From positions 1 to 27,855 of the IMG/VR virus record IMGVR_UViG_3300047276_000612: a DNA stretch of 27,855 bases; one strand, written 5' to 3'. The notes beneath the pieces were generated by a model. It ran no database searches, was not told where the DNA came from, and saw only the letters and a list, made by a program, of their open reading frames with translations. The translations under genes and the position numbers were made by a program. The first letter of the stretch is position 1. Every line of letters begins with the position of its first letter. This document shows, piece after piece, positions 5,958 through 14,897 of this stretch. This stretch comes from a virus.

Positions 5958-6029
5958 GCTTCAGTAGCACAATGGCTGTGCAACTCTTTTGTAAAGAGAA
6001 GGCTGCCGGTTCAAGTCCGGCCTGAAGCT
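5958..6029 (+). tRNA. tRNA-Thr (anticodon UGU)
   Basis: 72 nt with a full cloverleaf. The acceptor stem GCTTCAG (5958-5964) pairs with CTGAAGC (6022-6028). The D-stem GCAC/GTGC encloses AATGGCT with GG. The anticodon stem encloses TTTGTAA with anticodon TGT at 5990-5992. The T-stem GCCGG/CCGGC encloses TTCAAGT. No CCA is encoded (TCCCC follows), so the host must add it. Two oddities: the first anticodon-stem pair (5983/5999) is A-A, and the discriminator base is T instead of the usual bacterial A for Thr. It reads threonine ACA codons. It sits between two genes in a 111-bp gap. Confidence 0.9.
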
Positions 6030-6060
6030 CCCCTTTGATAACCCTTTCCCACCAACACCA

Positions 6061-11577: not shown

Positions 11578-12201
11578 ATGACAACCCACAAAGCAAGGGT
11601 GCTGGTAGCCTGTGAGCTATCAGGCACTGTGCGTGACGCTTTCACAGCAAAAGGCTTCTATGCTATGAGTTGTGACCTGATGCCAAGCGACCAACCCGGG
11701 GCACACTATCAAGGTGACGCTCTCGACATTATCAATGAAGGCTGGGACTTGATTATTGCCCACCCTCCTTGCACCTATCTTTCCAAGGCCGGTGCTAGGT
11801 GGCTTTATCGTGCAGGTGAAATCAACCAAGACAGGTTGCAGCAGGGCTATGAAGGTAAGGCTTTCTTTGAGGCTATGCTTAACGCTGACTGCCCTAGGAT
11901 TTGCGTTGAAAATCCTACGCCACTTAAGGTGTTCAATCTACCCCCCCCCCAACAAATTATTCAACCATATGAGTATGGTCATCCGTATTCTAAACGGACT
12001 TTGCTTTGGCTTAAAAACCTTCCGCAACTCATCCCAACCAATGTGCTTGCTGAATTCAGGCCATACCTGCCGTCAAACACAGGCGGGAAGAAAAGAGGAC
12101 AAAGCTACTCAATCGGCATCAGCAAAAACGCAAAGCAAAGCAGCAAGACCTTTGAAGGCGTTGCTGAAGCTATGGCCGACCAATGGGGCAAACTGCTATG
12201 A
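11578..12201 (+). CDS. C5-cytosine DNA methyltransferase-like protein
   Basis: 207 aa. Motif I-like ACELSGTVRDAF (11-22) and CDL (32-34) would bind S-adenosylmethionine. The catalytic motif IV is HPPCTYLS with Cys65, and motif VI is ENP (111-113). The segment QPYEYGHPYSKRTLLWLKN (129-147) is typical of the compact phage cytosine-methyltransferase group. It is shorter than full C5 enzymes and lacks an obvious large target-recognition domain, so specificity cannot be read. A C10 tract lies at codons 122-125. The role is probably protection of phage DNA from host restriction. It overlaps the helicase by 4 bp (ATGA). Confidence 0.78.
   Translation: MTTHKARVLVACELSGTVRDAFTAKGFYAMSCDLMPSDQPGAHYQGDALDIINEGWDLIIAHPPCTYLSKAGARWLYRAGEINQDRLQQGYEGKAFFEAMLNADCPRICVENPTPLKVFNLPPPQQIIQPYEYGHPYSKRTLLWLKNLPQLIPTNVLAEFRPYLPSNTGGKKRGQSYSIGISKNAKQSSKTFEGVAEAMADQWGKLL
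11941..11950 (+). repeat. C10 homopolymer inside methyltransferase gene
   Basis: Ten consecutive C, read as Pro-Pro-Pro then the first base of Gln. Loss or gain of one C would shift the frame and remove the last 80 or so residues. Such tracts in methyltransferase genes are known slipped-strand phase-variation sites in bacteria; whether this one varies is inference. Confidence 0.75.
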
Positions 12202-13517
12202 CAACACATAAAGCCCCAAGCCAGCTGCCCCCATCTGACTTGGATGCCGAAAGGACTGTGCTTGCATCTATCCTAGTGGATGCAGGACAGGCCAACGGCA
12301 TACTTAAGATTTGTGCCGAGCTAAACCTTCAGCCGGCCACATTCTTTGAACCCAAGCACCAGACCATCTACCAAGCCTGTCAGCAGATGCTGGCCGAAGG
12401 CATCAACCCGGATGAGCTGACCCTTGGCAACCACCTACGCAGCACCCTAGCCCTAGAGCAAGCCGGAGGTGTGGCCTACATCAATGAGCTGACGGCAACC
12501 CTGTTCAGCCCATCCCCTAACATCAGGCCGGCTATCGGCATCCTGTCAGAGAAGCACCAAGCCCGGCAGCTCATCTACATTGCCCGGGACATTACAGCCA
12601 AGGCTCTCTCTGGGGCGTTTAAACCCTCAGAGCTAGCCACATCCTTCCAAGCCCAAGCCAAGGCTCTCCTAGAGGCAAGCACAGGCCAAAGCACCACACA
12701 GCGGATGGCCTTGGAAGACCTGATGGCCTTTGACCGGCACAATGACCCTAACAACCTGATTGGCAACCGGTGGCTATGCAAGGGTGGCAGTCTGCTCTTC
12801 TCTGCCCAAGCCGGCTGCGGGAAGTCCACCCTAGTTACATCTATGCTGGTCAATTGGTCGCTAGGCAAAGCCCTCTGGGGCATCAAGCCGGTCAAGCCCC
12901 TGCGGATAGTCCTGCTGCAATCGGAAAATGACGGAGGGGATTTAGGGGAGCAGTGGCAGGATATCCTAAAAGACCTTTACCTGACCCAAGCTGAACGGCA
13001 GATGCTGTTTGAAAATGTCTTCATCTACCGGGAGGCCGTGAAGACAGGTGACGCTTTCGGCCAGCTGATTGAAGACCTAGTTAAGACCCATAGTGCAGAC
13101 CTATTGGTTTGCGACCCCCTGCTGGGGTTCGCCGGTGGGGATGTATCCAAGCAGGAGTTTTGCAGCCACTTCCTGCGTCACATCCTTCAGCCCTGCCTGA
13201 TGCGGACAGGCTGTGCCCTGATTGCCGTCCACCACCAAAACAAACCCCCTAAGAAGGGTGATGGCAATGTGCAGTCCACCTATGATTTTACAGGAAGCAG
13301 TGAGCTGGCAAATTGGTTCAGAGCTACGGCCATCCTTAGGCGTGAAGACCAAGAGCAGCCCCACTTCATCTTCAAGCTTGGCAAGCGTGGAGGCCGGGCA
13401 GGGATGCGGGATGGCCAAGGTATGTTCACTGAGTCACTACGTATCCGGCACAGCAAGGTCAGAGGGGAAATTAAGTGGGAGATTAACAACGCCCCACCCC
13501 CCACTGAAGATGTGTGA
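12198..13517 (+). CDS. Replicative helicase: DnaB-N domain + RepA-like RecA-fold ATPase
   Basis: 439 aa. Residues 10-110 (PPSDLDAERTVLASILVDA onward) resemble the DnaB N-terminal domain. The C-terminal half is a RecA-fold ATPase: Walker A AQAGCGKST (203-211), Walker B LLVCDP (302-307) and VHHQNK (344-349). The form is closer to the RepA/AAA_25 hexameric helicase type than to full DnaB. It would unwind DNA at the phage origin. ATG 12198 overlaps the methyltransferase stop as ATGA; an in-frame ATG at 12183 lies deeper in that gene and is less likely. A repeat- and palindrome-rich non-coding region follows directly, a plausible origin for this helicase. Confidence 0.88.
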   Translation: MTTHKAPSQLPPSDLDAERTVLASILVDAGQANGILKICAELNLQPATFFEPKHQTIYQACQQMLAEGINPDELTLGNHLRSTLALEQAGGVAYINELTATLFSPSPNIRPAIGILSEKHQARQLIYIARDITAKALSGAFKPSELATSFQAQAKALLEASTGQSTTQRMALEDLMAFDRHNDPNNLIGNRWLCKGGSLLFSAQAGCGKSTLVTSMLVNWSLGKALWGIKPVKPLRIVLLQSENDGGDLGEQWQDILKDLYLTQAERQMLFENVFIYREAVKTGDAFGQLIEDLVKTHSADLLVCDPLLGFAGGDVSKQEFCSHFLRHILQPCLMRTGCALIAVHHQNKPPKKGDGNVQSTYDFTGSSELANWFRATAILRREDQEQPHFIFKLGKRGGRAGMRDGQGMFTESLRIRHSKVRGEIKWEINNAPPPTEDV

Positions 13518-13528
13518 TTTTATCACAC
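13512..13528 (+). other. Inverted repeat over helicase stop codon
   Basis: GTGTGA (13512-13517) and TCACAC (13523-13528) with a 5-nt centre. It includes the helicase TGA. No U-run follows. Could be a weak transcript end or a protein-binding site. Confidence 0.4.
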
Positions 13529-13539
13529 TTAGGCCGACC

Positions 13540-13575
13540 TTAACATCAGCTTAACATTGCTTAACATTTGTTAAG
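13540..13575 (+). repeat. Phased TTAACAT direct repeats (iteron-like)
   Basis: TTAACAT occurs at 13540-13546, 13551-13557 and 13561-13567, with a partial TTAAG at 13571. Spacing is 11, 10 and 10 bp, about one helical turn, so the copies face the same side of DNA. The region is AT-rich compared with its flanks. Iterons of this kind bind replication initiators or regulators; here the location directly after the helicase gene favours an origin, but a repressor operator is possible. Confidence 0.6.
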
Positions 13576-13600
13576 ATAAACAAAAAGACTGTTTATCTAA
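13571..13600 (+). promoter_or_regulatory. Imperfect palindrome, operator or origin hairpin candidate
   Basis: TTAAGATAAAC (13571-13581) and GTTTATCTAA (13591-13600) pair around a 9-nt A-rich spacer, with one extra A on the left arm. It overlaps the last TTAA of the iteron-like array, so the two may be one functional site. Confidence 0.5.
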
Positions 13601-13617
13601 TCGTTTGCAGACCCCAT

Positions 13618-13779
13618 ATGACCACCCCTATTTTGTCCCTAGTCCTAGGTTGGCACAGACCTATTACCCTAAAGGGTAATATAAAGGCTTTACCCCTTTG
13701 GGGCTTTAACGCTTCGCTAGCCCCTAGGGGATGCAGCCTTTACCCAACCCCTGCCCCTTTGCGTGTATTCTATGCCTAA
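13618..13779 (+). CDS. Possible 53-aa ORF across palindromic region
   Basis: ATG 13618 starts an open frame beginning MTTPILSLVLGW and ending at TAA 13777-13779, overlapping the next gene by 8 bp. The MTT start and 8-bp overlap are in the style of other genes here. Against it: the DNA is made of palindromes (13662-13681, 13721-13730) and the product is Pro/Leu-rich with no recognisable motif. More likely non-coding regulatory DNA. Confidence 0.2.
   Translation: MTTPILSLVLGWHRPITLKGNIKALPLWGFNASLAPRGCSLYPTPAPLRVFYA
13662..13681 (+). promoter_or_regulatory. Perfect 9+2+9 palindrome, operator candidate
   Basis: TATTACCCT-AA-AGGGTAATA is a perfect inverted repeat of 20 bp, ideal for a dimeric DNA-binding protein. 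It lies about 90 bp upstream of the basic 112-aa gene and in the only long regulatory gap of the window. The HTH protein encoded at 14220 is a candidate binder (inference). Confidence 0.55.
13693..13730 (+). promoter_or_regulatory. GC-rich palindromes CCCCTTTGGGG and CCCCTAGGGG
   Basis: CCCC-TTT-GGGG at 13693-13703 and CCCCTAGGGG at 13721-13730 lie between the 20-bp palindrome and the next gene. Each could fold into a short RNA hairpin or be bound as DNA. No U-run follows. Role unknown. Confidence 0.4.
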
Positions 13780-14110
13780 GAAATCCCTAAGACAGCTTTG
13801 CCGGCTTCAGCATTGGAAGAGGCAATGGAAGACCAACACTGAGGCTATGAAGGCCAATCTTGATGGCCTGATTGCCTCTAGGAAGGCTTTGAAGGAAAGA
13901 AAGGCATCAACTGTCAGCCAAGTCATCAAAAGGCTTCCTAGGGCATTTGAGGCAGTAAAGAGCAAGCAGCTGATGGCTGATGCCCTGATTGCCCAAGGGC
14001 TAGAGCCATCCAAGGCCAGACTTAAGAGGCTAAGGGTCTATGCTGTCAGGTATGGTCATCTGACCTATGACAAGGCCAAGAAGTTATGGTTAAACTCTCT
14101 GGTTGACTAG
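13772..14110 (+). CDS. Basic, probably DNA-binding protein (112 aa)
   Basis: ATG 13772 (TTCTATG); a GTG three codons upstream is possible. The product is very basic and helical. The C-terminal part, with MADALIAQGLEPSKARLKRL then VYAVRYGHLTYDKAKKLW, looks like a helix-turn-helix-type or winged fold. It is the first gene after the regulatory gap, so a regulator or origin- or packaging-related DNA-binding protein is plausible. No family recognised. Confidence 0.65.
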   Translation: MPKKSLRQLCRLQHWKRQWKTNTEAMKANLDGLIASRKALKERKASTVSQVIKRLPRAFEAVKSKQLMADALIAQGLEPSKARLKRLRVYAVRYGHLTYDKAKKLWLNSLVD

Positions 14111-14219: not shown

Positions 14220-14897
14220 GTGGCATCAGACCCAATCAAACGCAGAAAGAAGGCACACCTTCAGCACCTGAGAGATGGGCGGGAGGAAGAAGCAGCCTTT
14301 GACGCTTGGTGGGATACGCTGACAGCTGAGCAACAGGCAACCTATCGGGGGCTTAATCCCCCAATCATTCCTTACAGGGAAATGCCTATGCCTAGGTTTG
14401 CCTTCCCTATCTATGCCAATGACACCAAGTATGCTACCGATGACCCACGCCGGCAGACTGAAGGCCAAGAGTCAGATGGCTGGGTAACAAGGGAGCGTGT
14501 GCAGGAGATAGTCAGTGATGTGCTGACTATGCTTGGTGCAAGCAGTGACAAGGCTGTGCAAGCTCACTTTGATTTGGTCAGGATAATCCTTCAGTGCCCT
14601 GATGCTCCCACACAATCAGCGTTGGCAGAAAGGCTGGGGCTTACCAAGCAAGCTGTGTCTGTCAGAGTGAAGAAGCTGGTGGCCTATGCCGGCCTGACTG
14701 CTCCCGGTCTGCTCTCTAGGATTAAACAGGCAGCACCTGCTGAAGATTATAATAAAGATTTAAATGAGGCTAATCGATTGGATATGACTGAAGGGGTGCA
14801 TAAGAAATCTATTCCCACCCCCGCCCAAGGGCGTGGGGCATCCACCACCGCCAAAAAACGCAAGGGCAGTGCGTCAAATTGTTCCGAAACCCACTAG
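14220..14897 (+). CDS. HTH protein, MarR-like winged helix (225 aa)
   Basis: The GTG at 14220 is the most likely start. The N-terminal 80 residues are charged and Pro-rich, possibly partly disordered. Residues about 127-157 (APTQSALAERLGLTKQAVSVRVKKLV) form a clear helix-turn-helix with the recognition helix TKQAVSVRVKKL, as in MarR-type regulators. The C-terminus is basic and low-complexity (AKKRKGSASN). Located just before the terminase genes, it is a candidate late-gene regulator or packaging-related DNA-binding protein. An AT-rich patch at 14743-14775 lies inside the gene. Confidence 0.7.
   Translation: MASDPIKRRKKAHLQHLRDGREEEAAFDAWWDTLTAEQQATYRGLNPPIIPYREMPMPRFAFPIYANDTKYATDDPRRQTEGQESDGWVTRERVQEIVSDVLTMLGASSDKAVQAHFDLVRIILQCPDAPTQSALAERLGLTKQAVSVRVKKLVAYAGLTAPGLLSRIKQAAPAEDYNKDLNEANRLDMTEGVHKKSIPTPAQGRGASTTAKKRKGSASNCSETH

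Follow-up and report, generated by a model that had tools for sequence, protein, structure and literature searches.

It has been reported that pRN1 carries, 3' of its replication gene, a 100-nt stem-loop which is needed for replication and whose structure is conserved while its sequence is not, and a similar stem-loop is described in Bordetella phages (PMC4234260). The same source describes RSF1010, where RepC acts on iterons, RepA is the helicase and the ssi hairpins ssiA and ssiB are present. Rules for DNA mini-hairpins are given for GNA loops and for d(cGNNAg) (PMC11101458, PMC6479982, PMC8373063), and the hairpins of the phage N4 promoters are described as needing the same closing pair and the same G and A for extrusion, on the template strand (PMC4496689). 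In the open-access full-text literature on iterons, stem-loops, DnaB-like helicase and ssi, no description of the phage element family reported here was found among the matches listed.

The element lies on IMG/VR contig IMGVR_UViG_3300047276_000612 from an uncultured phage, which was analysed as one stretch (positions 1 to 27,855; 27,855 nt) and is called the window below. It is located in the gap between the gene for a DnaB-like helicase and the gene for a small protein, P115, and on the basis of sequence comparison we read this gap, with a probability of about 0.55, as a replication origin of the iteron-plus-hairpin type that would work with the helicase and perhaps with P115. The phage locus combines the layouts of pRN1 and RSF1010. 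As in the oriV of RSF1010 (IncQ), repeats are followed by hairpins, and a ring helicase is accompanied by a small separate DNA-binding protein, a role which P115 may fill. Unlike RSF1010, the phage has a helicase with a DnaB-type N-terminus, hairpins that change sequence freely, and repeats of mostly 12-13 bp, whereas the RSF1010 iterons are about 20 bp. No RepC or RepB' family (RepB'-type primase included) was found among the window proteins scanned, and the locus is therefore not classed with the IncQ origins and their set of RepA, RepC and RepB'. With pRN1 the locus shares a structure-conserved stem-loop region of about 100 nt just 3' of a replication gene, and in both a winged-helix domain is implicated. 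However, pRN1 has a primase and an SF3 helicase in one protein and no iterons, whereas the phage has a DnaB-like helicase (DnaB/AAA_25, not the prim/pol plus SF3 type), repeats and two hairpins.

The annotated genes of the window are on the + strand throughout. Protein family scans revealed a lambda-like head module (gpA-type terminase, portal, protease and capsid), and a DNA ligase, a resolvase, an Erf-like annealing protein and an exonuclease are also encoded, together with the helicase, whose gene lies directly 5' of the gap and whose product has a DnaB N-terminal domain and an AAA_25/RecA-like domain. In the solved-structure search the N-terminal domain had solved relatives, and none was found by sequence for the C-terminal part. 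Searching 50,697 named phage records with the helicase, terminase and P115 as queries turned up no close relative; in the GTDB genome contigs P115 had no match and the helicase had three weak ones. A tRNA-Thr (TGT) gene is located at 5958-6031 of the window, and it seems to be retained by the phage family since tRNA-Thr(TGT) accounts for 12 of the 13 distinct tRNAs detected in the loci that were fetched. The features referred to below are as follows (strand given where one applies).

12183-13517, + strand: DnaB-like helicase gene (Pfam DnaB 2e-18, AAA_25 1.2e-18; PHROG DnaB-like helicase)
13539-13577: iteron-like direct repeats, three copies of CTTAACAT and a degenerate GTTAAGAT (shuffle test, Tandem Repeats Finder)
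13574-13598: inverted repeat AGATAAACA / TGTTTATCT, also in L032/L002 and L003
13652-13657, + strand: GGCACA box ahead of hairpin 1, a possible protein site; conserved (GGTACA in L018)
13662-13681: hairpin 1, TATTACCC-TAAA-GGGTAATA (folding; compensatory changes)
13682-13742: hairpin 2 (folding, covariation)
13682-13689/13735-13742: lower stem of hairpin 2
13693-13697/13726-13730: middle stem of hairpin 2
13700-13705/13719-13724: upper stem of hairpin 2
13711-13717: apical GC-TTC-GC of hairpin 2, which is GC-GAA-GC on the - strand
13743-13771, + strand: C-rich spacer leading up to the start codon of P115, missing from the distant loci L065 and L068
13772-14110, + strand: P115 gene, encoding a 112-aa basic protein (alignment of homologues; AlphaFold2 model)
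14220-14897, + strand: P225 gene, encoding a winged-helix protein (Pfam MarR_2 and HTH_24; homologue alignment)
14834-14845: candidate cos site TGGGGCATCCAC, a 12-mer found at contig ends

The gap between the helicase and P115 genes (13518-13771, 254 nt) had been described in the original prediction as the longest gene-poor stretch, but it is the second longest in the gene list, since 2454-2729 is longer (276 nt, though with a 55-aa ORF inside). Its left part is indeed AT-rich (GC 0.34 in 13518-13620, 0.51 in 13621-13771) and directly follows the helicase gene, which ends at 13517. The three predicted TTAACAT copies were recovered as CTTAACAT starting at 13539, 13550 and 13560, and with the degenerate fourth copy at 13570-13577 the spacing is 11, 10 and 10. 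Elsewhere in the window TTAACAT does not occur on the + strand and occurs once on the - strand (27117). The tandem array scored above every one of 200 dinucleotide-shuffled versions of the gap (p=0.005, the lowest value attainable), had the top Tandem Repeats Finder score of the window (44), and was the sole array of lag 9-14 over the threshold used within all 27,855 bases. An inverted repeat adjoining these copies, predicted at 13571-13600, was found at 13574-13598 with 9-bp arms and a 7-nt spacer. A promoter over the TTAACAT repeats was rejected, as the single promoter-like match was near chance expectation, and a sigma-54 promoter, prompted by TGGCAC, was rejected since no -12 element was present. 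No intrinsic terminator was found on the + strand. A reading of the CTTAACAT repeats as Pho-box-like, after the Pho boxes of cyanobacteria, may be conceivable.

The conserved part of the gap is 13652-13742, in which hairpin 1 directly abuts hairpin 2. Hairpin 1 had been taken as a perfect 20-bp palindrome; in fact it consists of two 9-nt arms around AA, with a mismatch at the two central bases, and may be paired alternatively as 8-bp arms around a TAAA loop. The two GC-rich palindromes predicted further downstream, CCCCTTTGGGG (13693-13703) and CCCCTAGGGG (13721-13730), do exist, but they are better read as overlapping arm pieces of one long hairpin, hairpin 2, because relatives conserve that pairing by compensatory change. 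Folded as DNA, the 106-nt stretch gave a z of about -4.5 for each strand. The - strand fold was more stable in most sequences, but a strand preference was not derived from folding energy, as shuffles attributed most of this advantage to base composition. The C-rich tail (13743-13771), with equivalents in L026, L034 and L033, gives - strand G runs that fit a G-quadruplex pattern by eye, and it is absent in L065/L068.

A helicase search and a motif search for close relatives gave 22 loci and 42 contigs, respectively. Once duplicates, L001 (the copy in the window itself) and L051, a chance match of the motif search, had been set aside, 34 distinct sequences were left, window included. The hairpin pair lies between the DnaB-like helicase and P115 in these 34 sequences: the helicase is upstream of the element in 33, the 34th contig starting too late, and P115 is downstream in 32, the remaining two contigs breaking off 105 and 214 nt downstream of where the element begins. 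As part of the sequence is set by the motif search itself, a second retrieval was made with P115 only; it gave 43 loci, 42 of them with at least 150 nt upstream. A CCTAAAGG-type hairpin core was found in 41 of the 42, at 98-144 nt before the P115 match, and the last one (L097) also carries both hairpins, its core being CCCCTATAGGGG; the pair is thus present in 42/42 testable loci fetched by P115 alone. The GGCACA box is partly enforced by the motif-search pattern, but it is present too in loci fetched by helicase or P115 alone.

Extra genes occur between the helicase and the element (for example an insert of 700 nt in L053 and one of 328 nt in L018) and never between the element and P115. The inserted ORF about 700 nt upstream of the element in L053 resembles, by eye, the Mom DNA-modification protein. 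With a covariance model, one strong match per record was obtained in 10 of the 12 records searched whole, weak extras being mostly on the opposite strand; the two records without one, which contain L010 and L005, stop at the helicase match or no more than 60 nt from it, too early for the element to appear. A two-loop pattern was also matched by L066, inside a gene, and by L059-L064 and L067, which have other neighbours, and these loci were kept outside all counts. The latter (contigs up to 44.8 kb) are nearly identical and, in an unrelated gene setting, carry a GCC-TAAA-GGC core with a CCCCT..ACGCTACGCTA..AGGGG hairpin, a pair which may be due to chance or may be a distant counterpart.

The TTAACAT repeats, which the original prediction had expected in related genomes, are absent from the nearest relatives (L002/L032 and L003), which retain just the inverted repeat and the hairpin pair. 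When the gaps of 14 representatives of the window clade besides the window were cut to 60 nt upstream and tested for tandem repeats, the window passed (lag 10), L006, L029 and L053 were marginal (p<=0.05) and the other 11 failed.

RNAalifold analysis of the 34 sequences gave 19 column pairs, 11 of which had changed on both sides. The stem letters vary by subclade while the pairing is kept (TAAAGGC/GCCTTTA, ATAGGGG/CCCCTAT, GTGTGGG/CCCACAC, GTTAGGG/CCCTAAC), and the GC/GC mini-stem at the tip of hairpin 2 has a compensatory AC/GT version in L011. Such two-sided changes argue against a protein that reads double-stranded sequence, which would not need them. When L065, L068 and L097 were added to the 34, the helices of these 37 sequences, read on the + strand, contained 942 Watson-Crick, 19 A-C and 4 G-U pairs (G-U 4/965), and 28 hairpins of distant relatives gave 411, 3 and 1, respectively (1/415). 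The stems of 13 distinct tRNAs from the same contigs, used as a control, had 195 Watson-Crick, 6 G-U and 1 A-C pairs and 2 others. G-U pairs are thus rarer in the element than in tRNA (5/1,380 versus 6/204; Fisher p=0.001, to be taken as a guide only, since related rows are not independent). Should it be one strand that folds, the mismatches would be better accommodated in the - strand. The element most likely acts as DNA.

On the + strand the tip loop of hairpin 2 is TNC in 17/37 sequences and TNAC in 19/37, with L006 as the exception; the - strand accordingly reads C(GNA)G and C(GTNA)G, in agreement with the rule for stable DNA mini-hairpins. Among 28 hairpins with 3-4-nt loops in the gaps of distant relatives, the rule was obeyed by 10 on the - strand and none on the +, while among 177 hairpins elsewhere in the same loci the numbers were 10 (-) and 11 (+). 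Against this reading, the third base of the tetraloops on the + strand is always A, which the d(cGNNAg) DNA rule does not require. At N4 early promoters the C(GNA)G loop is likewise on the template strand, which corresponds to the - strand of the rightward phage genes, and 17 of the 37 tip loops here are exactly GNA, 19 being GTNA and one deviating. However, the hairpins of N4 are short and serve a virion RNA polymerase as promoters, whereas the phage has one site per genome, and no RNA polymerase family was found among the window proteins scanned.

An RNA element in the helicase-P115 mRNA, such as an antiterminator of the put type, a hairpin processed by RNase III or a leader for the translation of P115, could also account for a strong fold (z -4.1 when the 106-nt stretch is folded as RNA). 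The element is always co-directional with P115 and ends about 20-50 nt before the start codon, and its + strand tetraloops fit UNAC, described as a GNRA-like RNA loop (PMC5311481). The put RNA of HK022 is likewise described as two stem-loops (PMC9378689), adjacent and within less than 100 nt, in a lambda-like genome. However, put acts as RNA and occurs twice per genome downstream of early promoters, whereas the phage element is present as one strong copy per record, is nearly without G-U pairs, which on the + strand are outnumbered by A-C (4 versus 19 and 1 versus 3), and in distant relatives adjoins lineage-specific direct repeats that resemble protein sites on DNA. In searches of Rfam at gathering threshold and at E<=10, its matches were all far below the family thresholds. 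We therefore consider an RNA element unlikely.

More distant relatives were obtained by helicase alignment, which gave 46 further loci (L161-L206; 37-43% identity), among them the contigs of L065 and L068, already encountered in the two-loop pattern search. Five of the 46 end before P115 could appear. In the other 41, the P115 profile matched at the right place in 30 at E<=0.001 and in 37 at E<=0.07, and P225 matched in 37, three of the misses (L173, L176 and L194) ending within 633 nt and the fourth being L172. Clustering of 75 gaps by shared 8-mers left 33 representatives, namely 18 distant lineages, the window and 14 of its clade. The gaps of the 18 distant lineages cannot be aligned, but tandem repeats (lag 9-17) were found at p<=0.05 in 17 of them, 14 at the floor of 0.005, and only L172 failed. 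Twelve lineages have a lag of 12 and five a lag of 13, and the failing L172 has a lag of 9. Since 12 is divisible by three, the codon length, same-length windows of the helicase genes of the same loci were used as a control, and 4 of 72 reached p<=0.05. The P115 start was set by hand in seven loci of this test (L165, L168, L186, L192, L195, L198 and L199).

The distant repeats have a lineage-specific sequence and are mostly 12-13 bp long, as against 10-11 bp in the window, where the TTAACAT repeats hold the equivalent place. Most distant gaps run from repeats through a short spacer, hairpin 1, 0-3 nt and hairpin 2 to P115. In L165, L197 and L198 the automatic hairpin pick was poor and hairpin 1 was read by eye. 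A direct-repeat array of the kind known from iteron origins is found at the level of the family only, as most of the window's close clade is without one. In L162, L163, L170, L173, L177, L182, L184, L186, L188, L198, L200 and L202, hairpin 1 has unpaired bases only on the 3' arm.

Repeats beside a hairpin are also the layout of rolling-circle origins such as that of pMV158, and unpaired bases on one arm, as in hairpin 1 of the distant lineages, are a property of folded-strand recombination sites. A nuclease or recombinase might thus nick a hairpin beside its binding repeats. However, the window proteins scanned gave no recognisable domain of an HUH endonuclease or a recombinase, bar the Erf-like annealing protein, and the hairpin loops are without a constant nick sequence, and we regard a rolling-circle type origin or recombination site as highly improbable.

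The AlphaFold2 model of P115 (pLDDT 94.4) consists of a helical hairpin and a winged helix. Library searches assigned P115 to no Pfam or PHROG family at threshold and the solved-structure search gave nothing significant, while its fold matches in the PDB are generic winged helices (best Z 6.8). Because of this predicted fold, binding of P115 at the gap is plausible, and as its homologues adjoin the gap in distant relatives too, P115 is a candidate binding protein of the repeats or hairpins. For P225, the solved-structure search gave the Mos1 transposase (0.003), and the model is weak (pLDDT 66.3).

A small winged-helix gene just downstream of direct repeats of mostly 12-13 bp would also suit an operator or centromere, where P115 would bind repeats and hairpins as double-stranded DNA and either control its own operon (P115, P225, terminase) or partition the phage, with no start of replication. 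The position directly 5' of P115, as expected for an autoregulatory operator or an mRNA leader, speaks against an origin. TubR (6aht) is among the matches of the P115 model (Z 5.6), but it is one of many equal ones, with the winged helices of HetR, MecI, SelB and cullin scoring as well, and no tubulin-like partner (TubZ) was seen among the window proteins scanned. Furthermore, a double-stranded operator needs no compensatory changes across two long stems. An operator or centromere thus appears improbable to us.

The skew shift that the original prediction had called for is present, so that its refutation test, given the missing TTAACAT repeats of the nearest relatives, has a divided outcome. 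The cumulative GC skew of the window has its minimum at 13802, and in 9 of 9 large contigs (the window and eight fetched) the minimum is at most 0.8 kb from the element. This applies directly to the window and seven of the fetched contigs; for the eighth, G003, the minimum comes shortly after the start of the contig, and rotating the sequence to the element brings it to within 0.11 kb. For G006 it is 1.5 kb upstream unrotated and 0.1 kb downstream rotated, and for G001 and G002, whose totals are strongly unbalanced, the linear minimum is about 0.5 kb downstream. Third-codon skew steps up just right of the element, is raised for roughly the first 3 kb and has fallen back by about 3-6 kb; it does not divide the genome into two arms, and whole-arm replichores are thus not supported at these positions. 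Both skew turning points of the window sit at gene-module borders. The cumulative minimum fits an origin, while the third-codon result suggests that the whole-genome pattern comes largely from gene content. The candidate cos site lies about 1.1 kb from the element and is crossed by the P225 reading frame; the same 12-mer stands at both ends of G001, G002 and G003 (28.5-31.3 kb), and many contigs stop exactly there.

The origin reading draws its support from the hairpins, present in every testable relative fetched by P115, the repeats in 17/18 distant lineages and a skew minimum nearby, in a fixed order (helicase, repeats where present, hairpin 1, hairpin 2, P115) with one strong copy per genome. 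In the proposed origin, a phage protein, most likely P115, would bind the repeats and melt or bend the site under negative supercoiling. The hairpins would then fold in single-stranded DNA, the - strand being favoured by its GNA/GTNA loops, and the folded strand could receive the helicase and a primase, as their landing or priming site. As no primase was recognised among the window proteins scanned, the model would require the host primase. Replication would then run outward from the gap, about 1.1 kb from cos. Near relatives without repeats might rely on the GGCACA box or the hairpins alone.

A more specific form of the origin reading, which we hold only tentatively, is that these double-stranded DNA phages start replication at a site read by shape, where supercoiling extrudes two hairpins with - strand GNA/GNNA loops beside repeats of mostly 12-13 bp bound by P115 as a winged-helix initiator. 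Such an origin would be invisible to alignment between lineages, because nothing but the fold, the rule for the loops and the period of the repeats would be conserved, the sequence of the stems being free.

The origins of most uncultured phages are unknown, and an origin here, if true, would give a search rule that works across lineages: repeats of mostly 12-13 bp and two covarying hairpins with TNC/TNAC loops, adjoining genes for a DnaB-like helicase and a winged-helix protein. This rule would find origins in lineages whose DNA no longer aligns. It would also point to an unnamed candidate initiator family, and would offer a natural test of whether the extrusion of DNA hairpins, as at the N4 promoters, also starts replication.
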